A stretch of DNA of 64,000 bases from Geothrix sp. PMB-07 (GCF_030758935.1 NZ_CP132333.1:248001-312000); one strand, 5' to 3'. Shown: positions 12,619-30,953, numbered from the stretch's first letter. A program made the numbers and translations. Notes: generated from the sequence alone by a model not told the origin.

Positions 12619-15477
12619 TCAGAAGCGGAATCCCACGGCGAGATTAAGTGCGCGAGCAGCAATGTAATTAGACGAGGAAGTTGCCTTGCCGAAAGAACTG
12701 CTACCCGCCTTAAAGGGCAAGGTGTAGTTGGTTGCGTAGCTGGAATTGGCAGCCGTGGCCTGAGTGAGGGTGTATGTACCCCCAGTCGTGTTCCAATTCA
12801 GCAGTTCCTGAGTGTTGAAGAAATTGGTGATGTTTAGACGTGCGAAGGCGGAAAGCTTGTTATACACCGGGTAGTCATATGAAATCTGGACATCCGTGCG
12901 GTAGGTTTCCGGGAAATGGAAAGTTCCGCGGCCATCCGTGTAGTTTGTGAAAGTTCCGGAATAATAGCTGGGAGCTCCAGCGGGATTCGCCAGAGAAGGC
13001 GACGTGACCGTCTTCGAGTAGGGGGCTCCACTGGTGTAGAACTGCAAAGCGGACAGGGAGAAATGACCCTTGCCCAGGGCCGTCTTGTAGGTCATGTTGC
13101 CAATGAACTGAATCGGCTGATCCGCTGCAAGGACGCCGTATGGGTTCAGGCGTTCCGAGGGGATGTTTGTGGGCCCGTAATTATTTGTCTGAGCGGATGC
13201 ACCGGCCTGGCCGCCTTCAAAATTACCCTTCAGGGAGCTGAAGGTAAGGTTGAACCCGTAGCTGAAACTGGAATTCAGCACGCGCTGATAGGTGGTTTCA
13301 ACGCTCCAATAATCGCGGGTGAGGGTGGGATCATTTTTATTGGTAATGGTGGCCTGCCCAGAAACAGGATCGCCGGCCGTGTAGAAGTCATCAACAAATC
13401 GGTCCCACTTGCGCTTTGAGAAGGCGATGCTCCAAACCGTTCCCTCCAAGTCGTCGTGTCGGAGGCTGGCGATGTGCTCGCGCATCCGAGGGGTTTTGAG
13501 ATTGGGGTCCGTCTTGAAATACGGACGGAACAGGCTTGGGTCGGAAGCGAAGAAGGGTGTGTTCGACCAGCTGGCGCGCAGCAGTGGATCGCCACCGAGA
13601 TATGCGTATTTGTATTCGGCGGGGTTGCCAACGACCGAGGAACTATCGGTGGCGCCTTGCACGACCTGTCCGACATAAACGCTGTAGTTGTAAGAAACAA
13701 CCCAGCGATTGTCACCGTAAATGTCATAGGTCGCCGAGAGGCGAGGCGAAAGATCCTTGAAGTCGAAATTGTTTACGCCCAAATCGTTCTGCGACTTGAA
13801 GGTGTCCAGGCGCAAGCCGAGGTTGAATGCCCAATTTTTGTTAACCTTCCACTTATCGTTAATGAAGTACCCATCGATCCGGTTTTTGGTGGTGGCGCCA
13901 AAGACCGGTACCCAGACATCCAGGAAAGTCTGGCCGCCGGTGGTGTCGTTCGGGGTCAGAGCTCGATTCGAGATGGCCGTGCTGTGGTTGTTTGGGTCAA
14001 CGAAGCCGTTGAAATAGATGAACGTGTTGGTGGGGCTCTGAGAGTTGGCAGCGTTGTGCTGCGACTCAAACAACTGAGCGCCTACCTTGATCTCGTGCGA
14101 ACCGGCGGCTTCTAGGAAATAGGTTGCATCGATGTTGGCGGTGCGAATGGGTCTGGAGTCGGAATCGCTACCGAAGAAACCATTGTCAAACATGGTGCCC
14201 GACTGGGTATCGATCCAGGGGATAGCCTTGCCGCCCTGGCCACCACTGCCAGGGCCACCCAGGGATTCCTTCTTATGATTGAACCGGGCATTCAGGTAAA
14301 GAGAGGGAGTTATCTGGCCAAGGTAGCCAAAAGTGACATAGCTGAACGTATCATTCTGAGATGATAGAACCTCTGTACCGCTGCTGCCGCCCGCAAAAGT
14401 TGTGGCGTAGTCGACGTTCTTGCGCTTAGATTCGGTCTTATTATACTGCCAGAAGACCTTGTGATCAGTGCTGATCTGCCAATCCAGCTTGATATCCTTG
14501 CGCTCTTCAACGCGGGTGGCGAAGAATGACTTATTGATGCCATCGCCGGCACCATCAACACCAGTGGTCGCATTAGGTGTGGAAGTCATCGGGGAAGTGG
14601 TGCGATAGCCGACCACGAAGAAGATGCGATCCTTGAGGACCGGACCGGAAACCACATATTGCTGAACCGTACTGTTGGCTCCGGCCAAGGGCTTCTGGAG
14701 AGGGGCAAGGGCATTCCACTTGCCAGGGTTGGTGATATCCCAACGGAACACACCAGAGAATTCATTGGTGCCGGACTTGGTTGTGGTATTAACCACACCA
14801 CCCGTGAACCGACCATATTCAGCGGAGGCGCCACCCGTGACGACTTGGACTTCTTCCAGCATTTCTTCGTTGAGGCGAACAGAAGGGCCGCCGGTCACGG
14901 GATCCATGACGTCCGCGCCATCAACCAGGAATTGAACCTGGGTGGCCTGGGATCCACGGATGGTGATGCCGTTGCTATCGCTGCTAACGCCTGGGGTTAA
15001 AGAGGCGATAGCCCTAATCTCTCGGTTGTTGATAGGAAGCGAGTTGACGCTTTCCAAAGCGAAGTTCTGACCAGTTTTGGTATCTCCAGGTTCGGCGACG
15101 GCCGTGGCGGCCGTGACAACCACCGTTGCGCCGGTTTCCTGGATGGGCTTCAGAACTACATCGTAGGCGGCTGCTTTATCGATGTTGATACGGAGCAGGA
15201 TGCTTGCCGACACATGGTTGGGGGCGGAAATGACCAGTTTCGCGTCATTCGGAGGAAGCTGCTGAAAGCGGAAGGAGCCATTGAGATCGCTGACGGTCTG
15301 CTTATCGCCTTGAGGGGTCTTAAGGACGATTGTGGCGCCGGGAATAAACTTTCCGGTGGCTGAATCCTTGACGGTTCCGATCACCGATCCTGTCTGGACG
15401 CCCTGAGCGACGAGCATCAGACCGCCTGAGGCAAGGAGCGCCGTGAGTCGGCCAAGCCGGTGGTTCAAAAGATGCAT
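12619..15477 (-). CDS. TonB-dependent receptor with carboxypeptidase-regulatory-like domain (Oar-like), copy 2
   Basis: A 952-residue outer-membrane receptor built like copy 1. It has a signal peptide (MHLLNHRLGRLTALLASGGLMLVAQ), a regulatory-like beta domain (GSVIGTVKDSATGKFIPGA), and a plug with LPINNREIRAIASLTPGVS and VQFLVDGADVMDP. The barrel ends NLAVGFRF. The ATG at 15477 has GGAGG 6 bases upstream, which decides it over the longer open frame to 15540. The protein is only distantly similar to copy 1, so these are separate receptors, not a recent duplication. The 261 bp upstream (15478-15738) probably carry its promoter; I see nothing else there. Confidence 0.92.
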   Translation of the reverse strand: MHLLNHRLGRLTALLASGGLMLVAQGVQTGSVIGTVKDSATGKFIPGATIVLKTPQGDKQTVSDLNGSFRFQQLPPNDAKLVISAPNHVSASILLRINIDKAAAYDVVLKPIQETGATVVVTAATAVAEPGDTKTGQNFALESVNSLPINNREIRAIASLTPGVSSDSNGITIRGSQATQVQFLVDGADVMDPVTGGPSVRLNEEMLEEVQVVTGGASAEYGRFTGGVVNTTTKSGTNEFSGVFRWDITNPGKWNALAPLQKPLAGANSTVQQYVVSGPVLKDRIFFVVGYRTTSPMTSTPNATTGVDGAGDGINKSFFATRVEERKDIKLDWQISTDHKVFWQYNKTESKRKNVDYATTFAGGSSGTEVLSSQNDTFSYVTFGYLGQITPSLYLNARFNHKKESLGGPGSGGQGGKAIPWIDTQSGTMFDNGFFGSDSDSRPIRTANIDATYFLEAAGSHEIKVGAQLFESQHNAANSQSPTNTFIYFNGFVDPNNHSTAISNRALTPNDTTGGQTFLDVWVPVFGATTKNRIDGYFINDKWKVNKNWAFNLGLRLDTFKSQNDLGVNNFDFKDLSPRLSATYDIYGDNRWVVSYNYSVYVGQVVQGATDSSSVVGNPAEYKYAYLGGDPLLRASWSNTPFFASDPSLFRPYFKTDPNLKTPRMREHIASLRHDDLEGTVWSIAFSKRKWDRFVDDFYTAGDPVSGQATITNKNDPTLTRDYWSVETTYQRVLNSSFSYGFNLTFSSLKGNFEGGQAGASAQTNNYGPTNIPSERLNPYGVLAADQPIQFIGNMTYKTALGKGHFSLSALQFYTSGAPYSKTVTSPSLANPAGAPSYYSGTFTNYTDGRGTFHFPETYRTDVQISYDYPVYNKLSAFARLNITNFFNTQELLNWNTTGGTYTLTQATAANSSYATNYTLPFKAGSSSFGKATSSSNYIAARALNLAVGFRF

Positions 15478-17069: not shown

Positions 17070-17750
17070 TCAGATGCTGCGAACGAGGTTCTCGATGGCG
17101 GACGCGTCGCCGCGGCCCTTGTAGCGGGCCTTGTAGTCGGCGAGATCCTTCAGGCCTTGCGCGCGGTCGCCCGCGAGACGGTCCACATCCACTTGGCTGG
17201 TCCAGAAGGCTTCGCCCCAGGCTTCGTCCGGCTGAGCCTTGGTGCGCAGGGGATCCAACTGGGCCCGGGCTTCCTGAACCTGCCCCAAGGCGAGGGCGCG
17301 CTGCGCGAGGCGGATTCGGCCCCAGGCGTCCTCCGCCTTGGCAGGCGCCTGACCCTTGCCATCCAGGGCCAGGCGCCAGGTGGCCAGAAGGCCTTCCGTG
17401 GCGGCCTTGCGGGAGGAGGGCGCAGCCTGGGTCAGGGCCTCGAGGCGGCCGAGGCGTTCTCGCATCCGCTTCTCCACCTCGGCCGCGGGCAGCGGCGTGA
17501 CGCCATCTCCTTCCACTTCCATTTGGAGCGCGGAAAGCGCTGCTTCATGCTTCTCGGCCACCGAGGTGCGCCAGAGGTTCCACCCGCCGAAGAGCAGGCC
17601 CAGGATCAGCAGGGAGGCGGCACCGATGAGAATGGGTTTCAGCAACCCGGCGTCCTCTTCCTGTCCCTGGCTGAACTTGGTCTGGAAATGGGCCAGGCTT
17701 TGGGCGGGTTTCTGGACTTGGATTTCGCGGATCTTATCGGGGCGGGCCAT
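17070..17750 (-). CDS. Membrane-anchored helical protein, YfgM/TPR-like, function unknown
   Basis: A protein of about 226 residues with a basic cytoplasmic N terminus and one transmembrane helix at roughly residues 39-58 (PILIGAASLLILGLLFGGWNLW). A helical C-terminal domain follows with alanine-rich repeats (WGRIRLAQRALALGQVQEARAQLD; EAFWTSQVDVDRLAGDRAQG). The single N-terminal anchor followed by helical repeats resembles YfgM-type ancillary proteins, but the family is not established. The ATG at 17750 has AGAGG upstream; the open frame extends to 17777. It probably heads a two-gene unit with the phosphorylase gene. Confidence 0.7.
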   Translation of the reverse strand: MARPDKIREIQVQKPAQSLAHFQTKFSQGQEEDAGLLKPILIGAASLLILGLLFGGWNLWRTSVAEKHEAALSALQMEVEGDGVTPLPAAEVEKRMRERLGRLEALTQAAPSSRKAATEGLLATWRLALDGKGQAPAKAEDAWGRIRLAQRALALGQVQEARAQLDPLRTKAQPDEAWGEAFWTSQVDVDRLAGDRAQGLKDLADYKARYKGRGDASAIENLVRSI

Positions 17751-17838
17751 GACGAACCTCTTCGGATGAAACATCAATCAGACCCTTGAGGATGCACCAA
17801 TCCCCTCACTTCTGGCACTTGAAAATGCGCCCCCGGCT

Positions 17839-17932
17839 GGTATCCTGATCATTCCTGCCTGGGTAGCTCAGTTGGTAGAGCAATGGATTGAAAATCCATG
17901 TGTCGGCGGTTCGATTCCGTCTCCAGGCACCA
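17839..17932 (+). repeat. Left direct repeat of the tRNA-Phe island (attL-like)
   Basis: These 94 bp recur at 22535-22628 with a single mismatch (A at 17851, C at 22547). The repeat contains the whole tRNA-Phe gene plus 18 bp upstream and stops exactly at the CCA end. Confidence 0.85.
17857..17932 (+). tRNA. tRNA-Phe (GAA), left copy
   Basis: A 76-base cloverleaf with encoded CCA. The acceptor GCCTGG pairs with CCAGGC, the D arm is AGCTCAGTTGGTAGAGC, the anticodon loop TTGAAAA carries GAA, and the T arm is GGTTCGATTCC. It is identical to the copy at 22553. A hairpin terminator follows directly. Confidence 0.97.
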
Positions 17933-17935
17933 GTG

Positions 17936-17969
17936 AAACCCCTGACCCTTCAACGGTTCGGGGGTTTTT
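17936..17969 (+). terminator. Terminator of left tRNA-Phe
   Basis: AAACCCCTGA pairs with TCGGGGGTTT with one internal mismatch, followed by a T run at 17965-17969. It starts 4 bases after the tRNA CCA end. Confidence 0.7.
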
Positions 17970-18034
17970 CGCGTGTGGGGATGCTGTCTCAAAGAGCCCG
18001 ATGTGATGCCCTAATTCTAACATTTGCGGGGCTG

Positions 18035-18056
18035 ATTCCCTACAAAATCCCTACAT
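18035..18056 (+). repeat. Paired CCCTACA repeats near left end (candidate integrase arm sites)
   Basis: ATTCCCTACA followed 11 bp later by another CCCTACAT. The same arrangement with the same 11-bp spacing is at 22458-22479 near the other end. About one helical turn between repeats on the same face fits a protein-binding pair. The role is inferred. Confidence 0.6.
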
Positions 18057-18315
18057 CGGATCAGAGCAGAAACCCGCGCCGATGCTGGATTTTCCTGCAC
18101 CAATGGCAGGCGAAGTCCAGGATGCCCCGTCCTGAAGCGCTGATGCCCCTACACGTCCTCGAAGCGCCCCACAGGGACGGGAGGGGTTTTATCTGATTTC
18201 GCCCCTCCTGCGCCTGACAAGGCAGGGGTGGTCAACATTCCAACGGAACCCGCATGATGAAGTCCCCGGGTTCTGCCCCACCACCGGGCAGTCAATCAAA
18301 GGCGATCGGATCTCT

Positions 18316-18975
18316 TCAATCGCCGGGCTCCCCCTCGAACCGCCCATGGGAATCGCCGTAGACCTCCCCATGTGCCTCATAAATCTTGGCGGGCAGGTCA
18401 TCGACCCCGGACATGCCAGCAAGCTCATTCGATGCCATCAGACCGAGCGTACCTGATGAGCGAAGGCAGACTACAACATCCTTTGGGTGGAAGTTCGCAC
18501 CGATCTCATTCCTTGTTACATAGGCACTCACGGCGATTTTCCCGCCATGAGTGAAGTCATGCAGCATGTTGATCGTGTCACTCAACCTTGAAAAAGTGCC
18601 GCCGTTGTAGCGCTCCACACTCTCAACATCATTAATCAACTGCTCGTAGCGGATCGGCGGGATGTTCTTCGCATACTCCTTTTCTGAAAACTCTTTGATC
18701 TGCTCGTCTGTCGCTTTCTCCAAGAACCAGACTCCACGCACAAAGGCGTCCAGTTGAGACCGCAGAAGCGCCTTCCCAGGGGCGATCATCTGCGCATCCA
18801 TCAAAAGGAGGATCCCAATTTGATGCTCCATCGAAATAAGAAACAATGCCGCTGCGATCTTGTTCCGTGGGGTCGCATCGACTGAAATGGCGTCTGTCAA
18901 CTCACGCGAGCGTCGGACCCACTCCTTCGCCATTGCGATCTCGGCATGAACCTCAGGCTGATCTCGTAGCTCCAT
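18316..18975 (-). CDS. Island protein, helical, DUF5677/DUF6988-like; function unknown
   Basis: A 219-residue, mostly helical cytoplasmic protein. A hydrophobic helix (KIAAALFLISMEHQIGILLLMDAQ) is followed by APGKALLRSQLDAFVRGVWFL. That pattern, a hydrophobic stretch then RSxxDAFVRG, recalls the DUF5677/DUF6988 group of helical bundles found on mobile and defence islands. The assignment is only by pattern. Its ATG at 18975 has a GGGGAG run just upstream. It is the last gene of the cargo block, all on the minus strand. Nothing in the sequence identifies an enzymatic site. Confidence 0.6.
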   Translation of the reverse strand: MELRDQPEVHAEIAMAKEWVRRSRELTDAISVDATPRNKIAAALFLISMEHQIGILLLMDAQMIAPGKALLRSQLDAFVRGVWFLEKATDEQIKEFSEKEYAKNIPPIRYEQLINDVESVERYNGGTFSRLSDTINMLHDFTHGGKIAVSAYVTRNEIGANFHPKDVVVCLRSSGTLGLMASNELAGMSGVDDLPAKIYEAHGEVYGDSHGRFEGEPGD

Positions 18976-19104
18976 ACTCCCCCCACCTGGGACGCCGATC
19001 CCCACCACGATTACTTTCGCAATGGAGGATAAAGCGTTTACTGTCTACACCCTATACCGTGGGGACCTGGCGCGTAATGAGCAAGGTCCCCAGACCGTGC
19101 GCCC

Positions 19105-19611
19105 TCACCCTTCCCCCTCAGAGAACGCGAAGGTCCTCATTCGGCTCATGGGGTCCCTTGGAGGGAGATCCATGTCAGCAAGCTGACAGAAGATTGCCGC
19201 ATTAGTGATCCCCATCGCTTCACGAACTCGTCCCCACTTACTCCAGTCCGCCGTGAGTACAACTCGCATCGTTTGCCCGATGCCGTCAGGAGGCACGAGT
19301 CGATCCACCGCCCAAATATGGTGTTCGATTTTCTCGATGCTCCTGCTGTCAAATGCCCTGAGAAGATTGTGGAAGGCGTGCGCCCCCGCCCGCTTGCTCA
19401 AGAACACGGCTTCAAACGCCGCATCACCCATATCCCCGAATAAAAACTTGTTCTTATTCTGCTGGTCGATGGCGAGGGCGTACAGGTGCCCCAGGAGCTC
19501 CTCGGAAAGGGCATGAACTTGTTTGAGGCGCACAAGGATGTCCTCCTTGGTTGCTTTCTGGAGGTGAAACAGGATCTCGGCTTTCAGGCGGTCGGGCACA
19601 AGGTCGGGCAT
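19105..19611 (-). CDS. Island protein, unknown function (168 residues)
   Basis: A hypothetical soluble protein with a good start: ATG at 19611 preceded by GGAGGAG at 4 bases. It is predicted mainly helical (RLKAEILFHLQKATKEDILVRLKQV; EELLGHLYALAIDQQNK) with no signal peptide, membrane segment or recognised motif. The 243 bp upstream (19612-19854) are AT-rich around 19675-19715 and probably contain its promoter. It lies between the other two island genes in the same direction but with gaps of about 130 and 240 bp, so it may be transcribed separately. I do not recognise its family. Confidence 0.6.
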   Translation of the reverse strand: MPDLVPDRLKAEILFHLQKATKEDILVRLKQVHALSEELLGHLYALAIDQQNKNKFLFGDMGDAAFEAVFLSKRAGAHAFHNLLRAFDSRSIEKIEHHIWAVDRLVPPDGIGQTMRVVLTADWSKWGRVREAMGITNAAIFCQLADMDLPPRDPMSRMRTFAFSEGEG

Positions 19612-19854
19612 GATCTCCTCCGGGTTGGTGGAGAGAGTGCCTGAAGGGGGACCCCCTAGCGCAAGACCCGGGGTCGTGATATAAAATATTGATAATAGGC
19701 TACATTGACAGAGTCATGCTCGCCTTGCGATCAGGCGTTCCCAAACAGGTCTGGTGCTTGCCTCATCCAAAAACGGAGCGTGAAAAGCCGGAATCCCCAG
19801 CAACATATACGATAGGGGGGGGTGAGTGACTGTGGGGTGAGTGTGAGGGAGCCT

Positions 19855-21168
19855 CTAAGCAGCTAACGAATTAACTCTGCTCCCTTCAGCGCAAAGTCCG
19901 ACTCCCACGAAGTAGTACCCGCCGCGATCCTTCTTCCGCTCCACTCCCGATGGGAAGCGTGCTGTCATCGCTTCACGGATGATCGCCCCGAACACCCCTC
20001 GGTGCTCCGAAACCCAGGGCGCAGCACTGCGGAACCTCACCCAGAGGTCGCCGACCGTAACACGCTGTTCTTCCCCCTTCTCACAATGCTCCACCAAGAA
20101 GTTCTGGAGGTCGTCCCACATCCCGTTCCGGATGTCCGCTCGCTTCTCAGAGCGGCGCTTGGACGACTTCTTGCTCTTTGCACTCTCCCTCTCGTGTGCC
20201 TTCCCATATGGGCGGTTCAAATCGCCGTTGTCTTTCATGTGCGAAGCGGCTTCCCGGATCGCTTTTACCCCATCGAAGTTATTTTGCTGTTCGAAGAACT
20301 GCACAATATCTTCCGTGATGGCGTCACCCCATTTCACTGCAAGCCCACGTTCCTGCACGGAAACGCCTGATTCCCAATACGCAAGTTCATAAAGGCGCTG
20401 ACTCACGCCGAGCAGAACTCCCATGCTTGGAGCGGAACCTTGGTGCGCCTCCCAAAATTCGCAAACCTCCCGGAACGTCTTCCCTTCTACCTTCGATCTC
20501 ACTTCATCGAGGGTCATGGGAACAAGGGCACCAGTCCCCACCTGCTCGTGGGTGAGATTTACGAGATCCATCATCCTCTGGAAGTAATCCACCGTCTTGG
20601 TCTTCACGCGCTCAAGATCGAGCGCCAACTTCCAATCCTCTTCATTCACAAATCGCGGGGCACCATCCCGTTCAAGAGTGTCATGGTCGATCTTGAATGG
20701 GGATCCGTCGCTACCAACCAAGAACCACATCGCAAGGTGGTATTCGAGCGGCGCTAAAAGGTCCTCACCGCCCTTCCCCTTAACCTGGAGAGGCGTATCC
20801 AGTGCGCGAGTCACTGCGTTCTGGATGTTCTCGATTCCCGCCACATGATTGTCCCCCCAGCCCGTTTCTGCTTCATTGAGCTTCGTCCGCTGAGTTCGAA
20901 GTATGCGACTTGCGACTTCACCCCCCCACTTTCCAGCAACAATGGTGTGGAAAATGAACAACTGATACTGAATTAGGCAACCTTTCCAGAATTGCTTCGC
21001 CTCCTCGGGGGCACCATCTCCTAGCGCGTCCCAACCGTCAAACGGAGATTCGTTCTTTCGAATCAACTCAAATGGCAGCATGGAAAATGCCTGCTCGGAG
21101 AACTCGAACTTGGTTGGAGCATGTTGTTTTTTTGCAAACAATGACTTCACGCCATCAAGCAAGCCCAT
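19855..21168 (-). CDS. Island protein, unknown function (437 residues)
   Basis: The largest island gene. ATG at 21168 with GGAGAG 6 bases upstream; the frame is open to 21195. The protein begins MGLLDGVKSLFAKKQ, continues with a long helical region, and has a highly charged linker near residues 325-345 (ESAKSKKSSKRRSEKRAD). It ends in a compact domain (VTVGDLWVRFRSAAPWVSEH ... GGYYFVGVGL) that looks like a winged helix of the kind found at the end of phage primase/helicase proteins. No ATPase or nuclease motif is visible. It may be a nucleic-acid-binding island protein, but the function is unassigned. Confidence 0.62.
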   Translation of the reverse strand: MGLLDGVKSLFAKKQHAPTKFEFSEQAFSMLPFELIRKNESPFDGWDALGDGAPEEAKQFWKGCLIQYQLFIFHTIVAGKWGGEVASRILRTQRTKLNEAETGWGDNHVAGIENIQNAVTRALDTPLQVKGKGGEDLLAPLEYHLAMWFLVGSDGSPFKIDHDTLERDGAPRFVNEEDWKLALDLERVKTKTVDYFQRMMDLVNLTHEQVGTGALVPMTLDEVRSKVEGKTFREVCEFWEAHQGSAPSMGVLLGVSQRLYELAYWESGVSVQERGLAVKWGDAITEDIVQFFEQQNNFDGVKAIREAASHMKDNGDLNRPYGKAHERESAKSKKSSKRRSEKRADIRNGMWDDLQNFLVEHCEKGEEQRVTVGDLWVRFRSAAPWVSEHRGVFGAIIREAMTARFPSGVERKKDRGGYYFVGVGLCAEGSRVNSLAA

Positions 21169-21349
21169 AACAGACTCTCCGTGGTCTCCCGCCATTTCAG
21201 GTTATACCAGCACGGTCAGAGTGAAGTGCCCCCACATGGTCTGACAAGATCAAACACGCTTGATCGCTTTAAGCCCCCGAACCTGGTTGCGAAGCCTCCA
21301 CGCCCCTCCGCCATGCCTTCATCGCGTCCCCCCCCGGTGGGGGGGAGCC

Positions 21350-21499
21350 GTGAACCCCACCGCATTAGTTAGCGCTGTGTCCCACACGACCGGCATCCAG
21401 ATCACGACCCCCAACGGCAAGCGGGTGTATTTGGGCTTCTCCCTGACGAGGCGAGTCGGGGCATTCCCGGGAAGCATGTCGAAGCGGCGTAGGCGGTGA
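21350..21499 (+). CDS. Possible small basic protein (49 residues)
   Basis: A short frame starting at GTG with GGGGAG two bases upstream, ending in a run of basic residues (MSKRRRR). The middle (GIQITTPNGKRVYLGFSLTRR) looks like a beta-hairpin. It lies in the 400-bp gap between the large island gene and the integrase remnant, divergent from the former. It could be chance; no homologue is recognised. Confidence 0.25.
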   Translation: MNPTALVSAVSHTTGIQITTPNGKRVYLGFSLTRRVGAFPGSMSKRRRR

Positions 21500-21500
21500 G

Positions 21501-22414
21501 CTACTTGGGACCGGGGTTGTTGATGACCTTGAACTCACCCTTTTCCAGCTTCGGTCCCCAGAACTGAATCACCGATTCTGCGTCCTCCGGCTTGCTGGCA
21601 GCTTCCCGGAGGATGGTCTGGACGGGTCCCCAGGGAAGACCAAGCCGCTGAGGGTGCCCTTGGGCATGGTGGATAGGGCGTCCCACACCCATGAAGGGAT
21701 GGGCAGCACCCGCGCCTCCTTGCCCTTTGCGCGTCCCACGGTGTAGGTCCGCTGCTCCAGGTCCATCCAGTCCCAGCGCATCCCGGCGACCTCGCTGGAG
21801 CGCAGTCCCAATCCCAGCATGACGCGCACCATCACCCGCACCTGGGGGTTCTTCGTGGCGTGGTCAAAGGCGGCGAGGAAATCCGACACACGACTGGCGG
21901 GGACGGTGGGGCGGGGCTTCCGCTGCACCCTCAGCAACTCCACCTTAAGGGCTTTCCGCAGCCTTCCGCGCTTCACGGCGAAGTTGAGGAGGGTCCGCAG
22001 GGAGATGAGGACATTGTTCGTATAGACGGGGGACCGCCCTGCCACCAGGAGGTCGTTCCTCAACTGGTCGACCATAGCTGCGTCGATGCGATCCACGGGG
22101 GTCTTGCCCAGGCGAGGGGCGATCCACACCCGCCAGTGCGCGGTGGCAGAGGTGATGTAGCGGGGACTCGCAGAAGGGGTCTTGGACGCCAGGAACTCCA
22201 GGTGGACTTCCTCCAGCAGTAGGGTTCGGCGGGTGTCCTTGAGGGCGAGCTTGCCCCGGGCGATGTCCAGGCGAAGCTGACTCAGGAACAGGGTGGCGGT
22301 CTTCAGGTCCGTGGTCTTGGTCGATCCCTGGTAGCGGACCGCATCCACCACGATGTCGTAGTTCCAGACAGACCCGCCCCGCTGGGTGAGTCCTGGGGTC
22401 TTGCTGCGTGTCAT
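21501..22414 (-). pseudogene. Tyrosine-type site-specific integrase, truncated
   Basis: The intact frame (21569-22414, 281 residues, ATG with GGAGG 5 bases upstream) has an N-terminal SAM-like DNA-binding region (residues about 50-165) and the start of the catalytic domain. Box I Arg is visible in MLGLGLRSSEVAGMRWDWMD and the beta-strand Lys in RAKGKEARVLPIP. After LVFPGD, about residue 265, homology fails. A second frame carries a few more integrase-like residues (GPVQTILREAASK) and ends at 21501. No HxxR box or nucleophilic Tyr is found in any frame, so the C-terminal catalytic half has been lost through a frameshift plus deletion. Confidence 0.75.
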
Positions 22415-22457
22415 GGCGTCCTCCGAAGTGGAGGCGCTTCAAGACAGCGGAGGGACC

Positions 22458-22479
22458 ATTCCCTACATTTCCCCTACAT
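22458..22479 (+). repeat. Paired CCCTACA repeats near right end (candidate integrase arm sites)
   Basis: ATTCCCTACA then CCCTACAT at 11-bp spacing, between the integrase start (22414) and the right tRNA copy, in the same orientation as the left pair at 18035-18056. Confidence 0.6.
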
Positions 22480-22534
22480 GGGGCGAAGGTGCTGGGCGTG
22501 GGATCTATGACCAGGGTCGCAAGTGTTGCAACCG

Positions 22535-22628
22535 GGTATCCTGATCCTTCCTGCCTGGGTAGCTCAGTTGGTAGAGCAATGGATTGAAAATCCATGTGTC
22601 GGCGGTTCGATTCCGTCTCCAGGCACCA
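22535..22628 (+). repeat. Right direct repeat of the tRNA-Phe island (attR-like)
   Basis: Second copy of the 94-bp repeat at 17839-17932, with one mismatch. Because it includes the complete tRNA and its upstream bases, either the element carries a whole tRNA gene or it sits between two ancestral tandem tRNA-Phe genes. Confidence 0.85.
22553..22628 (+). tRNA. tRNA-Phe (GAA), right copy
   Basis: Identical in sequence to the tRNA at 17857-17932, with the GAA anticodon and encoded CCA. It has its own following hairpin and keeps the 18 bp upstream. Confidence 0.97.
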
Positions 22629-22633
22629 CGTCG

Positions 22634-22653
22634 AGGCCCCCGGTTGGGGGCCT
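22634..22653 (+). terminator. Hairpin after right tRNA-Phe
   Basis: AGGCCCCC pairs with GGGGGCCT around GGTT, 6 bases after the CCA. The following bases (TGATGTTTGT) are only mildly T-rich. Confidence 0.6.
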
Positions 22654-22721
22654 TGATGTTTGTGGGTAGGCTCCGGTCATCGGTGAAATCTGATCGGAAC
22701 CATGCCTGGCCGTTGGCGGGC

Positions 22722-24037
22722 TTAGATGACGCCGCCTGCTTTCAGCTCGAGGTAGCGGTTCACCAGGGCGGTGGGGAGTTTGGCGGGGCTCACGTCCAGC
22801 ACGCCGACGCCCTGGTGGTGGATGTGCTGGAAGAGGGCTCGGCGCCGGGCCATGTAGTCGTGGGCGGCGGCGTGGTCGAGGGCGGCCTCCACATCGTGGA
22901 CGGGCTGGGCCAGCAGGCCATCGACCACGCCTTCCCGCAGGTTGGCGAGCATCACCAGGTGGCGACCTCGGAGCAGCTTCAACGCGGGCAGAAGGGTGGC
23001 GTCCTCCTCATCGCGCAGGTTGGTGATGAACACCACCAGGCTGCGTTTGCGGAACTGCTTCAGGAAGCGCTCCGCCGCCGCGAGGTAGTCCGGCGCGTGG
23101 GTGGTGGGCTGCACATCGAAGAGCTCCTGGAACAGTCTCTCCAGCGTAGCCAGGCTCTTGTGGGGCGCCACGGTGCGCGGATGGTCTTCGGCAAAGGTGG
23201 TCACGCCCACGGCGTCGCCCTGCTTCAGAGCCACGTAGCTGAGGAGGAACAGCGCGTTGAGGGCCTGGTCGAAGTGGCCCAGTTCGGTGCCATCCAGCTC
23301 GTCGAGGGGTTTCATGCGCCGCCCGCAGTCGAGCAGAAACACCACCTGCTGATCGCGCTCGTCCTGGTACTCGCGGCTGATGAGCTTGCGGCTTCGGGCG
23401 CTGGCCTTCCAGTCCACCTGGCGCAGGGTGTCGCCCTGCCGGAATTCCCGCAGCTGGTGGAAATCCAAGCCCTCACCGCGGCGGGGGCGTTTGAGGATGC
23501 CGAGCATGGACAGCCGCTGGTCCGTGGCCAGCAAGGCGTAGCGGGCGACGGCGGCAAAATCAGGGAAGACGCGCACGGGAAGGGGAGCGGGCAGGCTCAG
23601 GAGGCGGGCCCAGAGGCCGAGGCTGGTGCGAAGGCGCACCTGGATGGGGCCGAAGGCGCGCTGGCCCCGGGCCGTGGGGCGCACCTGGTAAGGCTGCTCA
23701 AGGAATCCCTGCGCCGGAAGATGGTGCTCGCTCGGCAGGCCCCGGCTGTCGAAATCCGAAGGGTGGTGGTCGAACAGCTCCACGTGCAGAGGGAACCGAG
23801 AGGGGTTGCGCAGGCGCACACGGATCTCCCGCCACTCGCCCAGGGCCAGGCTGGATGGGGCTTCCCGCGCTCCGCTGAGCTGCTTGGGCCAGAGGGTGAG
23901 GAGGAGGTCCAGCAGGAGGAACCCCAGCAACACCCAGCCGCAGATGCGCCAGACCGGCATCAGGCGCGCCCACACCGAGGCCGCCAGACCCAGCAGGGTC
24001 CAGGCGGCCAGGAGGCGGAGCAGGGGGAGGGTGGGGA

Positions 24038-24041
<4 letters not shown>
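22722..24041 (-). CDS. DUF58 domain protein
   Basis: A 439-residue protein with two N-terminal membrane helices (residues about 5-50) and a DUF58 domain. The DUF58 signature is visible as RRGEGLDFHQLREFRQGDTL followed by RQVDWKASARSRKLISREYQ near residues 205-245. A von Willebrand A-like fold follows (VVFLLDCGRRM; SLVVFITNLRDEED). DUF58 proteins are regularly encoded beside MoxR ATPases and are thought to act with them in assembling or activating envelope proteins. It is the last gene of the operon; its ATG overlaps the MoxR gene's stop by 4 bp. Confidence 0.93.
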
Positions 24042-25033
<992 letters not shown>

Positions 25034-25069
25034 GAGGCGGTCCCGTGAAGATGCTTGGTCAGTGGGCGA

Positions 25070-26242
25070 TCAGAGGCGTTGCCGGAGGCGTTCGAGGGTG
25101 AGGAGATCCTGGGCCAGCTGATGGGAGGATCGGCCCGGCCGAGCATCCAGCGCAGCGCCGATGGCATCGGCGTTGCCGCCCGCGGTCTGGGCCAACCAGG
25201 CGGCGCGGGCGCCGAGGTCCATGGATTCGTAGGCGGGGTTCAGGCGTTGGGCCCGGCGCTCCAGAGCTTCGCGGGTGCAGGCCACCAGGTGGGGTGCGGC
25301 GCCGCCATGCCAGAGCAGACGCGCGCTGGCGCTGAGGTGCTCCAGCAGGGAACGCCGCTGCGGCTTGGCCTCGGGCAGCATGGGGCCGAAGCGGGGCCAG
25401 CCCTTCCACACCCAGGCGCCCACGAGCGCCAGCAGGGCCAGCAGCGGCGCCCGCGCGTGCTCCCACACCCAACTGAAGAGGGACAGCTCCACGGGGCGCG
25501 ACCAGATCACCACCGGAGCACATCCCGACTGCAGGGCCAGAAGCCGCTGCACGTAGGCTGCGTGATCCAGTTGCCCCAGGGAATCGCGGTAGACGAAGTT
25601 GAGATCCGGCGTGAGGGTGATGCGCCCCTTGCCTTCGACGCGGGTGAGCAGCACCTCCAGGCCCTTGTCGCCCAGGCTGTAGCTCCACGCCTTGGCATCC
25701 TCGGGTACCAGGCGCCACCGCGCCGTGCGGCGCACCCGGTAGGGCTGTTCTCCGTCGTGGAAGGTGTCCGTGTCCTCCTGCTGCTTTGCCTCCGTCAGGT
25801 TCGGCTCACCGGCCTGCTTGTTCTGAAGGGTGACGCCCAGGGTCTGGTGCAGCAGGGCCAGGCCTCGGTCATCGTTGAAGGGTGCGGCGGTGCCATCGGT
25901 CAGCAGGTGGCCACCGCGGCGCACCCAAGCCAGCAGGGTGTCCACCTCGGTTTGCGTCAGAGGCTGGCTCAGGTGGAGCAGCAACACAACGGCCCCTTCG
26001 GGCAGTTCCGGGGCCACTACTTCGCCGCCCTTCCGCTGCACGAGGCGGCCTTCGGCCTCCAGCCACTTCTGCAGCAGGAGGGTGGGGTTCTCCAGGGCCT
26101 CGCCGCGCAGCCCCACCTCGATGCTCTGGGGCGCTCGGCGGAAGGAATGGCGGCTCAGCCACACCAGTGTGGCGCACCCCGCGAGGAAGGCCATCAGGAG
26201 GGTGAACAAAAGTCGCCGCATCGCGCTCGGGCCGGAACTCAT
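25070..26242 (-). CDS. DUF4350 domain membrane protein
   Basis: A 390-residue protein with an N-terminal membrane anchor (MRRLLFTLLMAFLAGCATLVW), a DUF4350-type domain and a second transmembrane helix near residues 270-290 (APLLALLALVGAWVWKGW). A cytoplasmic helical tail follows. The DUF4350 part shows PTLLLQKWLEAEGRLVQRK and LLAWVRRGGHLLTDG, the fold of GATase-like sensors of this family. The start at 26242 is set by an ATGA overlap with the end of the DUF4129 gene; the frame stays open to 26269. The position inside a MoxR operon is typical for DUF4350. Confidence 0.85.
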   Translation of the reverse strand: MSSGPSAMRRLLFTLLMAFLAGCATLVWLSRHSFRRAPQSIEVGLRGEALENPTLLLQKWLEAEGRLVQRKGGEVVAPELPEGAVVLLLHLSQPLTQTEVDTLLAWVRRGGHLLTDGTAAPFNDDRGLALLHQTLGVTLQNKQAGEPNLTEAKQQEDTDTFHDGEQPYRVRRTARWRLVPEDAKAWSYSLGDKGLEVLLTRVEGKGRITLTPDLNFVYRDSLGQLDHAAYVQRLLALQSGCAPVVIWSRPVELSLFSWVWEHARAPLLALLALVGAWVWKGWPRFGPMLPEAKPQRRSLLEHLSASARLLWHGGAAPHLVACTREALERRAQRLNPAYESMDLGARAAWLAQTAGGNADAIGAALDARPGRSSHQLAQDLLTLERLRQRL

Positions 26243-27798
26243 GGCTGCCCCTGGAAGGCGGCGGGCCAAGAGGCGCAGAGGTGATCGAAGGATTCCTCTG
26301 AGGGGCGTTCATCCTTGTAAGCGAGACGCAGCCAGCTGGTGGTGAGGTCGTGGAACGTGGCGGCAGAATCCGCTTCCAGTCGGCTTCCGGCCGCCCGCAG
26401 GCAATCGCCTTCGGTGGCGCTGGCGGGAATCTCCATCCCGCGGCGATGGACCAGCTCGGCCAGAGCGCCCCGATAGAGCAGGGCCAGCGCGGCCCGGGCT
26501 TCACCGTTGGCAAAGAGAAGACGCGCCGCGGCGGGTACATCCGGCGGCAGGCTTTCCGGCCGGATATCCAGTCCCGCGATGGCCTCGGGGGCCTCCCAGG
26601 CCTGGGCCTTCGCCCCGGGCAGGCCGAGACGGTGCCGAAAACGATAGATCAACCACAGTAGGAAGACGAGCAGGCTGCCCACGAGCAGGATCTTGCCCAC
26701 CATGGCCAGCACATCGAAGAGGGCCTTCAGGAAATCCAGGTTGCGGGGCGCGGTGGGTTTGGCGGGCTCCTTCTTGGCGAAGAAGAAATCCAGAAGGCTG
26801 CGCAGCCATTTCGGCTCACTGCCCGTGGGATCGTAGCGGAGGGTCCGAATCTCTTCGGTGCGCTTGAAGGCGGGATCCTCCTTCAGAATGCGCTGGGCGC
26901 GGAAGCGGGCCTCCTCCCCGGGACGGATGGGCCCCTTGTTCGGGGTGGGCGATGGGGTGGGGGCGCCTTCGGTTTGGGCGGGTGCTGGCGTGGCTGGGGG
27001 CTCCTGAGCGCGGAGCCCCAGCCCGCCCAGAATCAGGAGGAGGGCCACGCTGAGGCGGGCGGCCATGCGGCGGAAAGCCTGCTCCAGATCCCAGCCTTCG
27101 AGATGCGTGCGCCGGTTCAGGTAGAGGCCGAAACCCCCGGCCACGAACAGAGGCTCCGTGAGGGTGAGCACCAGCAGCGCCACACCGACCAGGAACCACT
27201 GAAAGCCTGTGTTCATGGCACCGAAACCTTCCCACAGCTGCAGGCGGCTGCCGGGCGGCAGCATGGCCTGAAGGAGGGCGATGACGCCCACCAGGCTGAG
27301 CAGGGTGAAGACCCACCCCGAGCAGGTGAGCAGAAAGGCAGTGCCGCCGCCCTGCCGCGTCAGCACCCGCGCACGCTGGCGGTAGGCGAGGCCGCGCAGG
27401 CCTTCCAGCTGGAAGATCGGCAGCACGTAGCTGCGCATGGGCGAAAAGCGCCGCCAGAGCAGCCCCGCCACAAGGCCGCAGCGGTGAAGGTTCCGCCATT
27501 CACCCAGGGCGTCCCACAGGGAGGTGGGCTGGCCGAATACGGCGCGGCTGAGCACGAAGAGCACGCCCCGATCCAGCCAGGGCTTGAGCCACCACAGGAG
27601 GAGCAGGATCCACAGCGGTCGTGCGTATAGAAAGGGCAGGCAGAGCGCCAGCACCAGGCCCAGCTGGAGGATCCACAGGGCGGCAACGGGCTTCCAGTGG
27701 GCCTGGAGCAGGCTGAGGCCCAGGTCCACGGCCTCCAGGGTCGAGCGGGTGCGGGGCACGAAGCCCATGCCCGCCTGTTTCGCGGCGGCGGGCTTCAC
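26239..27798 (-). CDS. DUF4129 domain multi-pass membrane protein
   Basis: A 519-residue protein beginning VKPAAAKQAGMGFVPRTR at a GTG whose GTGA overlaps the SpoIIM gene's stop. It has about five membrane helices in the first 260 residues (KPVAALWILQLGLVLALCLPF; TAFLLTCSGWVFTLLSLVGV; FLVGVALLVLTLTEP). A proline-rich stretch (residues about 270-300) and another helix (ILLVGSLLVFLLWLIY) follow. The C-terminal DUF4129 domain is AARLLFANGEARAALALLYRG. A much longer open frame runs upstream through the SpoIIM gene but reads shadow sequence there. The domain is common in MoxR/DUF58 operons. Confidence 0.85.
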   Translation of the reverse strand: MKPAAAKQAGMGFVPRTRSTLEAVDLGLSLLQAHWKPVAALWILQLGLVLALCLPFLYARPLWILLLLWWLKPWLDRGVLFVLSRAVFGQPTSLWDALGEWRNLHRCGLVAGLLWRRFSPMRSYVLPIFQLEGLRGLAYRQRARVLTRQGGGTAFLLTCSGWVFTLLSLVGVIALLQAMLPPGSRLQLWEGFGAMNTGFQWFLVGVALLVLTLTEPLFVAGGFGLYLNRRTHLEGWDLEQAFRRMAARLSVALLLILGGLGLRAQEPPATPAPAQTEGAPTPSPTPNKGPIRPGEEARFRAQRILKEDPAFKRTEEIRTLRYDPTGSEPKWLRSLLDFFFAKKEPAKPTAPRNLDFLKALFDVLAMVGKILLVGSLLVFLLWLIYRFRHRLGLPGAKAQAWEAPEAIAGLDIRPESLPPDVPAAARLLFANGEARAALALLYRGALAELVHRRGMEIPASATEGDCLRAAGSRLEADSAATFHDLTTSWLRLAYKDERPSEESFDHLCASWPAAFQGQP

Positions 27799-28742
27799 GG
27801 GCGCCTCCGGCCTGCGAGGAGCAGCCAGAGGCAGAGCAGCACCCAGAACAGGAGACCCAGGGCCACCTTGGCCTTCCAGGGCACCAGGGTGTTGGCGGAC
27901 CAGAAGCCCTCGAAGCAGGCGGCGATGAAGGTGAGGATGGCCGCGCCGAACAGCAGCCGGGAGCCACGCCTGGCGCCGTCCTTCAACGCAGCGAGGCGAG
28001 AGCGGCGGCCCGGGTGCATGAAGGCGATGCCCATGCGCAGGCCGCCGGTGCCGCTGAGCACGACGCCGATGAGCTCGAAGGAGCTGTGGCCGCTGATGAA
28101 GCCGTAGAACGTGGCCGTCAACCCGTGGTTGGTGAGGTGCGCCATCACCGTGCCGCCGTGGAGGCCGTTGAAGGGCAGGAAGAACAGCGGCCCCACGCCC
28201 GCCAGCAGGCCCGAGGCGAACACTTGGAAATCGATGCCGATGTTGTTGAGGATGTAGTAGCCGAACATCATGACGTCGCGGGTCGCCCCGGTGGCGCCAG
28301 CCACGGGGGTTTTCGGATCGTACATCTGCACGTATTTGGCGGCCTCGTCCGGGCTCAGCAGCAAGTGCACCAGGTTGGGATGGGCCCGCACCAGCAGGAA
28401 GGCCGCGATCCAGGTGCCGAAGAAGAGCAGGCTGGACACGGCCACCAGCCGCCATTCCTCCCGCACCTGCCGGGGCAGGTCGTGCCACAGGAAACGCCAG
28501 GCGCTCAGCAGGCCCTCGCCGCGCTCGCCGTAAAGCTTCTGGTGAACGCGCAGGGCCAGCTGCTGAAGCCGCTCCACCAGCGCCGGGCTGTAGTGCCGCT
28601 CCCGGGCCACGGCCAGGTGATGGCAGAGCTGCCGGTAGGAGGATGGCGCATCCTCGACGCCGAGGGTCGGCCGGTCTTCCACCCAGCCCAGCAGGTTCTC
28701 CCACAAGGGCCGGTGCTGCTGCTCGAAGAGCTGCTGCCTCAT
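27795..28742 (-). CDS. SpoIIM/DUF95-family integral membrane protein
   Basis: A 315-residue member of the stage II sporulation protein M (DUF95) family. A soluble N terminus (MRQQLFEQQHRPLWENLLGW) is followed by several membrane helices, including VSSLLFFGTWIAAFLLV, the VFASGLLAGVGPLFFLPFNG segment typical of the family, and a C-terminal LLFWVLLCLWLLLA. There is no sign of sporulation here; in non-sporulating bacteria the family travels with RDD and MoxR genes. Its ATG overlaps the stop of the RDD gene by 4 bp, and its stop overlaps the GTG of the next gene by 4 bp. Confidence 0.9.
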   Translation of the reverse strand: MRQQLFEQQHRPLWENLLGWVEDRPTLGVEDAPSSYRQLCHHLAVARERHYSPALVERLQQLALRVHQKLYGERGEGLLSAWRFLWHDLPRQVREEWRLVAVSSLLFFGTWIAAFLLVRAHPNLVHLLLSPDEAAKYVQMYDPKTPVAGATGATRDVMMFGYYILNNIGIDFQVFASGLLAGVGPLFFLPFNGLHGGTVMAHLTNHGLTATFYGFISGHSSFELIGVVLSGTGGLRMGIAFMHPGRRSRLAALKDGARRGSRLLFGAAILTFIAACFEGFWSANTLVPWKAKVALGLLFWVLLCLWLLLAGRRRP

Positions 28743-29446
28743 GAGCCGCCCCACAGGTAGCGGGCCATGCCCAGCAGGTGGGCCAGGCCCTTGGCGCCTC
28801 TCGCGCCGCTGAGGGGGACGAGCACGTTGGCCAGTTCTTCGCTGCGCGCCGGGGTGAGGCGCGTGCTGCGTTCTGCGAAGGAGATGAGGGCCGATTGCTC
28901 CTCCAGCGTGAGGGGATGGGATGGCGCCATGGGCTCGGCCATGGGCAGCCGGGGCGCCTGGATGCTGGCTTCCACGTGCACCACGAGGGTGCCGGCCACG
29001 AGGTCGCCGATGCGCTGGAAATCCCGCGTCAGCAGGAGGCTGATCAGGCCCACCGTGTAGGCGCCCGGCAGCCCATCCACCACCCGCAACAGGTTCCGGA
29101 TGAGGCTGGGGCTCCAGCCCACGGGGCGGCCATCGGCCATGAGCACGCGGAGTCCGACCCAGCGCTTGCCCAGGGTCCGGCCCCCACCCAGCACCTCGAA
29201 GAACACCGGATAGAGCCACTGGGCGAAGAAGGCGAGGATGAGCCACAGGCCCAGACCCAGGGGCCCGAGAAAGGCCAGCCCGATGCCCACGACCATCAAG
29301 GCGATCCAGACCAGGGCCTGATCCGCGGCAAAGGCCCAGAGCCGCGCCACGGGGCCGGCGGGACGGAGCTGCAGCTCCACGCCCTCCGGCGTCTCGATGG
29401 TTCGCACCGTATCGACGACGGTCAGGGATGGGCTTGGGCCGGACAA
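28739..29446 (-). CDS. RDD-family membrane protein, first gene of the MoxR operon
   Basis: A 235-residue protein with the RDD domain in its first 150 residues. RLWAFAADQALVWIALMVVG carries the Arg and Asp of the family name. It is followed by membrane helices and GRTLGKRWVGLRVLMADGR. The C-terminal 80 residues are soluble and helical. The assigned start is TTG with no strong ribosome site; an in-frame GTG about 13 codons further in is another option. It starts the six-gene minus-strand operon. The 261 bp to the divergent DUF4097-like gene probably hold both promoters. Confidence 0.85.
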   Translation of the reverse strand: MSGPSPSLTVVDTVRTIETPEGVELQLRPAGPVARLWAFAADQALVWIALMVVGIGLAFLGPLGLGLWLILAFFAQWLYPVFFEVLGGGRTLGKRWVGLRVLMADGRPVGWSPSLIRNLLRVVDGLPGAYTVGLISLLLTRDFQRIGDLVAGTLVVHVEASIQAPRLPMAEPMAPSHPLTLEEQSALISFAERSTRLTPARSEELANVLVPLSGARGAKGLAHLLGMARYLWGGS

Positions 29447-29707
29447 GGCTAGGCTTGGGCCGCGACCACGAGGGGTCGGCCCGTGGGGTCGGAGAAGCCG
29501 CGCTCCGCGTCGGGCGCAGCCGGGGCTTCAGAGGGAGGGGGGGCGGTCATAGGGGTCCCGGGGGCGTTCCATGGTAACGGGATCGGACCCACGACCTCTG
29601 TGGTTATGCAGGGCTGTATCCCCGCGGTGATTCGGCGTGGGGTGCTGCCCAGGCGTAAACGGGTGCGGTGGCTCCGCGTAGAGCTAGCCACAGCACCGGA
29701 GGTGGCC

Positions 29708-30307
29708 ATGTGGAAATCCCTTGTCCTTTGGGCGGGTCTCACAGGAGCCTCCCTGTTTGCCCAGGCTCCAATGGACGGCCACGGCATGAGCCGCACCTTG
29801 CAGGATCTCGGGCAACCTGTGGGGAACGTGCTTTCGCTGGATTCAGAGGCGGCGGGTCTCACCATCCTCCCCAGCGAGGATGGCCATGTGCGGGTGCGTT
29901 TCACAGGTGCCAAGGAGCTGGATCTCGCTCATCTGCGGGTGCGCTTCGAGCCATCGGGGCATCCGGCCCGGCTGCGAGTGACGGACACGCCCCACCATGA
30001 TTTCCAGTACGAGGTCCAGGTTCCCCGCAGCATCAACCTGATTCTCCGGATGTCCGCGGGCGAGGTGAAGATCCATGGCGTGGAGGGCGACAAGGATCTG
30101 CGCCTCCATGCGGGCGAGGTGGTGGTTCAGGTGGGAGATGCCAGCGCCTACGGATCGGTGTCCGCTTCGGTCTGGGCCGGCGAGATCCACCCCGGCCCCT
30201 TCGGCGGCGACAAAGAGGGCCTGTTCCGCAGTTTCCACCGGGAAGGCCAGGGCCGCTACAGCCTGCTGGTCAAGGTGAAGGCGGGCGAAGTCACTTTCCA
30301 GAAGTGA
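29708..30307 (+). CDS. Secreted DUF4097-like beta-repeat protein
   Basis: A 199-residue exported protein: signal peptide MWKSLVLWAGLTGASLFAQ, then repetitive beta-strands of the DUF4097 adhesin-like type (INLILRMSAGEVKIHGVEGD; LRLHAGEVVVQVGD; SASVWAGEIHPG; KVKAGEVTF). The AGE motif recurs four times at nearly regular distance, as in a right-handed beta solenoid. The ATG at 29708 has GGAGG 5 bases upstream; the longer open frame from 29483 is not supported. It is divergent from the MoxR operon. The function is unknown, probably periplasmic or surface exposed. Confidence 0.75.
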   Translation: MWKSLVLWAGLTGASLFAQAPMDGHGMSRTLQDLGQPVGNVLSLDSEAAGLTILPSEDGHVRVRFTGAKELDLAHLRVRFEPSGHPARLRVTDTPHHDFQYEVQVPRSINLILRMSAGEVKIHGVEGDKDLRLHAGEVVVQVGDASAYGSVSASVWAGEIHPGPFGGDKEGLFRSFHREGQGRYSLLVKVKAGEVTFQK

Positions 30308-30337
30308 ACGGGGCTCCCGTTTGGGAGCCCCGTTCAC
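30304..30337. terminator. Perfect 15-bp hairpin between convergent genes
   Basis: The arms 30304-30318 and 30323-30337 are perfectly complementary around GTTT. The stem contains the stop codon of the DUF4097-like gene and lies 19 bp from the end of the convergent lipoprotein gene, so it can serve both. T tails are weak on both sides. Confidence 0.7.
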
Positions 30338-30356
30338 GACAGCGCTGTTGCGCGGG

Positions 30357-30953
30357 CTATTCCCCGGCGGGGCGGTAGTCATCGGCGAGGGTGACGGGCA
30401 CCTTGGCCTTGATTTCCTTCTGGATGTCCTGGCTGATGGTGGCCATGCGCTGCTGCTTGTAGCCCTGGGCCACCTGGGCTTTCACAGCCTCGAAGGGGGG
30501 TACCGTGGCGCCGCCCTGGGCCTTCATGCGTTCGACCTGCTCCTTGTAGAAGGCGAGCAGCTGTTCGTCGGTGGGTTCGGCGGCACCCATGCGCTTCTTG
30601 GCCAGGGCCTGGAAGTAGACGTTGGCCTGCTGCTGTTCCAGCTGGCGCTGGACGCTGGGATCCTTGTCCAGGCCCGTCTGCTTGGCGTAGGAGGTGATGG
30701 CGCGGGACATGGCGATGCGGTTGGCCAGCTGGGCGCGCTCTTCGCGGGCTGCGGGGTCGGTCAGGAAGGTCTGGGCCTCCTTGGGATCCGCTGAAAGGGT
30801 GGTGACCACATCGCGGAACTCGGCCTCGGTGATCTTCTCGCCGCCCACATTGGCGATGACGCGACTGGTGTCGGGCTTGCTGGGCTTGCAGGCCAGCGAA
30901 AGCAGAAGCGCCGAACCTGCGAGGAGGGCGGCATGGCGGATCATCTTGGACAT
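30357..30953 (-). CDS. SurA-N-like lipoprotein without a PPIase domain
   Basis: A 198-residue predicted lipoprotein: MSKMIRHAALLAGSALLLSLAC with the lipobox LSLAC. A SurA_N-type chaperone region follows (RVIANVGGEKITEAEFRDVV), with long helices and a C-terminal segment. The parvulin-type rotamase domain that normally follows is absent and the total length leaves no room for it. The ATG at 30953 has GGGAG 5 bases upstream. It is probably a periplasmic chaperone for outer-membrane or secreted proteins. It is convergent with the DUF4097-like gene and divergent from the glutaredoxin gene. Confidence 0.8.
   Translation of the reverse strand: MSKMIRHAALLAGSALLLSLACKPSKPDTSRVIANVGGEKITEAEFRDVVTTLSADPKEAQTFLTDPAAREERAQLANRIAMSRAITSYAKQTGLDKDPSVQRQLEQQQANVYFQALAKKRMGAAEPTDEQLLAFYKEQVERMKAQGGATVPPFEAVKAQVAQGYKQQRMATISQDIQKEIKAKVPVTLADDYRPAGE

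Follow-up and report, generated by a model that had tools for sequence, protein, structure and literature searches.

Two complete tRNA-Phe genes bound a small Geothrix island, as in a clade of integrases whose elements mostly adjoin complete tRNA genes

The window analysed here, a stretch of 64,000 nucleotides from Geothrix sp. PMB-07 (genus Geothrix, Acidobacteriota), contains a genomic island lying between two complete tRNA-Phe genes. This island is quite likely an integrative element that entered tRNA-Phe by a crossover in the anticodon loop and that belongs to an integrase clade whose attachment site (attP) normally holds a complete tRNA; the copy in the window is itself very likely immobile. 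The association with complete tRNA genes is a property of the integrase clade and not of the window locus alone.

The island is bounded by the left (17839..17932) and right (22535..22628) copies of a 94-bp repeat, which differ at a single leader position (A at 17851, C at 22547). Each contains a complete tRNA-Phe(GAA), copy 1 at 17857..17932 and copy 2 at 22553..22628, both called by ARAGORN and both scoring 70.0 bits with the Rfam tRNA model; repeats and tRNA genes are all on the plus strand. Copy 1 is directly followed by a terminator of the element's own type (17933..17971, plus strand, with a terminator-like stem at 17947-17964), similar to those found after copy 1 in other elements of the clade, and the different terminator after copy 2 resembles the chromosomal type of relatives. 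An earlier note on this DNA had described an island between two complete tRNA-Phe genes, a 94-bp direct repeat with one mismatch that includes 18 upstream bases, a truncated tyrosine integrase just inside the right copy and a distinct terminator for each copy; all of this is borne out by the present coordinates and searches. Its further claim that part of the promoter region is duplicated holds for the -10 box (TATCCT), which lies within the 18 bases; the -35 box lies outside the repeat. The resident tRNA-Phe promoter, a predicted sigma70-like site (TTGAAA-16-TATCCT), is located at 17819..17846 on the plus strand. It is the sole -35/-10 pair found within 17700-22800, where the promoter scan gave no -35 upstream of copy 2, to which the repeat supplies a -10 alone. 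A TATCCT-like box is conserved upstream of tRNA-Phe in relatives, as is TTGAAAATG. Consensus promoter matches are weak evidence in either direction as to the use of copy 2. An assembly artefact is very unlikely, because matching arrangements recur in other genomes and in other genera.

The integrase gene (21569..22414, minus strand, 281 aa), assigned from Pfam, from alignment with intact relatives and from its position in a tree, starts 139 nt from copy 2. The protein matches Phage_integrase (PF00589, E=4.3e-9), the match being confined to profile positions 7-82 of 172, and alignment with intact relatives shows that the C-terminal HxLR...H..Y part (HxLR, second H and catalytic Y) is absent, leaving an incomplete catalytic domain. 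Because the catalytic C-terminus has been lost, the window element is very likely an immobile remnant. Intact integrases are found in G143, G334, G007, G006, G032, G019 and others. The cargo comprises three minus-strand ORFs: one of 230 aa (18316..19008) assigned to DUF6988 and to the PADLOC candidate defence family PDC-S52 (E 7.9e-20 and E 1.1e-19), one of 168 aa (19105..19611) without a convincing family in profile searches, and one of 446 aa (19855..21195) without a family match in the same searches. On the plus strand, 21370..21460 may be a remnant of another element gene (TGIQITTPNGKRVYLGF); compared by eye with ORFs of other elements, it resembles the C-termini of proteins from the G333 and G143 elements, and it lies close to the broken end of the integrase. 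PHROGs searches of the tested proteins, with the four ORFs of the window element among them, matched integrases alone; a prophage or phage satellite was rejected, since no structural or packaging gene was recognised.

Following the integrase through the Holophagaceae yielded 22 proteins that form one clade (support 100/100). A complete tRNA gene, divergently oriented, is found 101-226 nt from the integrase start in 16 of the 22 members, and 14 of these 16 have a second complete copy of the same tRNA at the other end. Eight tRNAs are involved: Phe, Thr-TGT, Met, Asn, Arg-ACG, Arg-TCT, Arg-CCT and Pro-TGG. Both ends are complete in the elements of Phe (G000, G002, G017, G143, G334), Thr-TGT (G007), Met-CAT (G006, G143, G346), Asn (G032), Arg-ACG (G002, G019), Arg-CCT (G350) and Pro-TGG (G333), the copies of the G017 and G019 pairs being on two contigs. 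The Arg-TCT (G004) and Arg-CCT (G016) elements, which lie near contig ends, have a complete tRNA at the integrase side alone. Mapped on the integrase tree, the complete state clusters and can be explained by few changes, with parsimony blind to gain versus loss. A search by one repeat-form pattern was too strict and matched 2 genomes. No circular relative or attP was found in the viral collection, where the best relatives have at most 39% identity, and no close relative among plasmids (best 40%). Lengths range from about 1.8 kb, in a degraded element, to about 22 kb. The G006 Met element encodes a PD-Lambda-2-like and an IrrE-like protein (L078, 10963-14645), a pair that suggests defence cargo; a type I-like methyltransferase/specificity protein is encoded by the G032 element and a Prim-Pol protein by the G143 Met element.

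Exact empty sites were found for two of these tRNAs. At the Asn site (L176), the sister genome G002 has upstream DNA 97% identical to that of the G032 element, then one tRNA-Asn, then the sequence found downstream of copy 2. At the Thr site, G015, G024 and G025 (L168-L170) have a single tRNA that joins the sequence upstream of copy 1 to the sequence downstream of copy 2 in G007. Moreover, copy 1 in G007 ends with TCGG instead of TCCA, and because the empty sites and copy 2 end with CCA, the 3' half of this copy 1 fits an origin in the element.

In the proposed mechanism, a tyrosine integrase would insert a small element in tRNA-Phe by an anticodon-loop crossover, and the attachment site of the clade would normally hold a complete tRNA gene where a 3' fragment is usual. 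The integrated element would be preceded by a copy 1 made of the resident promoter and 5' half plus the 3' half and terminator that it brought in, and followed by a copy 2 whose leader and 5' half come from the element side and whose 3' half and terminator are the resident ones. Such an exchange of halves would leave complete tRNAs at both ends. In the window, copy 1 would accordingly combine a resident 5' half with a 3' half from the element, if the crossover lies where sister elements place it, and copy 2 would carry the resident 3' half with its downstream terminator, following the logic seen for Asn and Thr. The inner copy would be kept matched to the resident gene, through either gene conversion or selection for a functional tRNA.

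How the inner copy came to be complete can be approached by comparing it with the outer one. Over 14 pairs, 459/462 positions are identical in the 5' halves, as against 199/420 in the 30-nt leaders and 162/407 in the 30 nt downstream. Between the three Phe elements of Geothrix, 33/33 positions of the inner 5' half agree, as against 67-73% of the adjoining spacer. Most inner copies score like the outer ones; two look damaged, that of G143 Phe, where the first nucleotides differ (57.1 versus 72.8 bits), and that of G346 Met, which has a T-stem mutation (55.9 versus 65.4 bits). One rival explanation is that the element first left an ordinary 3' fragment, whose 5' half was rebuilt by gene conversion from the intact copy, so that a complete tRNA was never part of attP. 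The inner copies of G334 and of Geothrix have the acceptor stem of the host genus. The inner leader of G002 and that of G017 agree with the host's own at 16/16 positions, even though the two hosts differ at four of them; because the match extends to the leader, the inner copy seems to have been re-matched to the resident gene. Recombination continuing after integration was also suggested by the authors who described ICEMh1-like integrative and conjugative elements (ICEs) with two complete tRNA-Leu genes (PMC6861422). However, the two Arg-ACG elements (G002 and G019) have in common an inner leader with TATAAA, unlike the copy-1 leader of either host, so that in their case the complete tRNA seems to travel with the element. 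The clustering of the complete state on the tree also argues against repeated rebuilding, and partial rebuilds ending within the 5' half are nearly absent. Conversion of a fragment after integration is consequently rather unlikely as the general origin, and the favoured reading is that the complete tRNA is inherited with the element and at times re-matched to the host, the 5' half having been lost later in some lineages.

The crossover position is suggested by the six of 22 clade members in which the integrase side holds a 3' piece only, from the anticodon loop on: Arg-ACG in G350, Thr-CGT in G335, and Arg-CCG in G347, G143, G002 and G031. The G350 Arg-ACG integrase shares 79% identity with its counterpart in G019, whose element has a complete copy. 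In most elements, paired repeats with an 11-bp period (CCCTACA, GGTGCAA and GGCACAA types) are found on both sides of the tRNA and are probably arm-type integrase sites. In the window these putative sites are CCCTACA-AAAT-CCCTACA at 18038..18055, with a spacing class like that of other elements, and CCCTACA-TTTC-CCCTACA at 22461..22478 (both plus strand). The right pair lies 107 nt before the anticodon, a distance found in three of the four other Phe elements and close to the 109 nt of G334. Over all complete cases the inner repeat is mostly 65 or 107-111 nt from the anticodon (145 for Asn, 174 for Arg-TCT), and in fragment cases with a recognisable repeat 66-67 or 109 nt. Since the fragment-only sisters keep an equal distance between repeat and anticodon, the anticodon loop is the probable place of the crossover, and the additional 5' half would occupy existing spacer and be dispensable for recombination. 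The initial working model placed the crossover in the D-arm or at the 5' end, with the whole gene carried along to restore it. It agrees with the G143 Phe element, where identity starts near tRNA position 5-6, and with the G007 Thr element, where it starts exactly at +1. Nevertheless, at equal arm spacing, closely related sister integrases leave nothing of the tRNA before the anticodon loop, and on this ground the model was dropped as improbable. In G002 and G031 the displaced Arg-CCG 3' pieces (L075, 10470-10515; L089, 10321-10373) have CGGGTAC, a perfect complement of the resident 5' GTACCCG, and the restored copy has CGGGTGC, with a G-U pair; in both genomes the Arg-CCG element has apparently substituted its own 3' half for the resident one.

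The same tRNA-Phe site was compared by a search for the 94-mer in 60 related genomes, including 37 of Geothrix when that of the window is counted. Among these 37, two complete copies more than 90% identical are found only in the window's genome, G002 and G017. The second complete tRNA-Phe is absent from 34 of the 36 Geothrix relatives, and both exceptions carry the same type of element, with an integrase beside the right copy as in the window (82% identical to the window's in G002, where the tRNA copies are 1.8 kb apart, and 73% in G017). In many Geothrix genomes a single copy is followed, directly or past other DNA, by the gene at 30357 of the window. In G004 and G003 the same tRNA-Phe holds islands of other integrases, P4/DUF4102-like by eye, with 3' fragments of 51 and 47 nt. 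The tRNA-Phe site is thus a hotspot at which the complete second copy goes with one integrase type.

These comparisons bear on several proposals of the earlier note. The count of tRNA-Phe genes that it recommended gives one complete copy as typical and two only together with the element, and the old two-copy arrangement fixed across the clade that it had considered is contradicted by the relatives without a second copy. The empty-site comparison that it also advised succeeded in part, giving exact sites for the Asn and Thr elements and none for the Phe insertion. Most relatives have a single tRNA-Phe followed by different DNA; in G028, where the right flank of the window is present from 22723 on, other DNA lies in between. 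Of the two origins offered by the note, an element that carries a full tRNA is the better supported. Landing between two pre-existing tandem tRNA-Phe genes would account for an island flanked by two complete copies, but is most improbable in view of the single copy in relatives, the single-copy empty sites for Asn and Thr and the recurrence in eight tRNAs. A tandem tRNA duplication without a mobile element was rejected as well, none of the relatives compared having two copies without an insertion.

Some features of the surrounding loci may be mentioned. In the window, a 7.7-kb block (22629-30357; DUF58, a MoxR-type ATPase and neighbours) separates the right tRNA-Phe from the gene found after tRNA-Phe in many other Geothrix, and among the loci compared it is present in G028 only. 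A second scar resembling the left end of an element follows copy 2 in G002 (L032, 8843-9000), and a shorter piece of this type of scar follows the single tRNA-Phe of G032 (L035, after 9307); both are probably left over from an earlier element inserted there. In G028 (L031, 7251-7366) and G007 (L043, 7930-8084), an element left end without a right copy follows the single tRNA-Phe, which probably reflects decayed insertions.

Complete-tRNA attachment sites have reportedly been described for HP1 and SLP1. In searches of open-licence papers, an integrase clade with complete tRNA flanks as its rule over eight tRNAs was not found, ICEMh1 being the sole precedent that they gave. ICEMh1-like ICEs occupy tRNA-Leu(UUG) in Pasteurellaceae, and some genomes have a complete tRNA-Leu on both sides, less frequently than the usual attR, which does not conserve the D-arm (PMC6861422). 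The present elements resemble them in the direct repeat at the anticodon loop and in the occurrence of complete flanks. They differ in that completeness is the rule in one integrase clade and over eight tRNAs, and in their small size; no conjugation gene was recognised in the proteins that were tested. The P4/DUF4102-like islands mentioned above have the same target in the same genus, with another integrase type (by eye) and a 3' fragment instead of a complete gene. As in the A-subsite islands of Islander, the integrase is next to the attachment site, the target is restored, repeats mark the ends and empty sites occur in relatives (exact here for Asn and Thr); unlike in those islands, the second copy is a complete tRNA and not a displaced 3' fragment (PMC4383910). 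Islander looks for one tDNA accompanied by a tDNA fragment, and its tDNA filter drops any hit that falls within a full-length tRNA (PMC4383910), so that islands with two complete tRNAs would be discarded. Given this described filter, such islands may be under-counted in that database of precisely mapped tRNA islands.

Islands of the window type raise the copy number of tRNA genes. Moreover, the clade provides a natural series of related integrases whose attachment sites are complete, partly damaged or reduced to a fragment, and it allows one to ask how integrases change their target tRNA and whether the extra tRNA is used. A tentative but conceivable extension is that attP behaves as a self-sufficient tRNA cassette, in which an exchangeable complete tRNA is set between fixed pairs of arm sites and a terminator; a change of target would then be a swap of the whole tRNA, and each integration would add a working tRNA gene. 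In G008 (L081), two complete tRNA-Arg(CCG) genes with three differing positions (803-879 and 12835-12911) lie on either side of a region with an out-of-clade integrase that adjoins neither copy.
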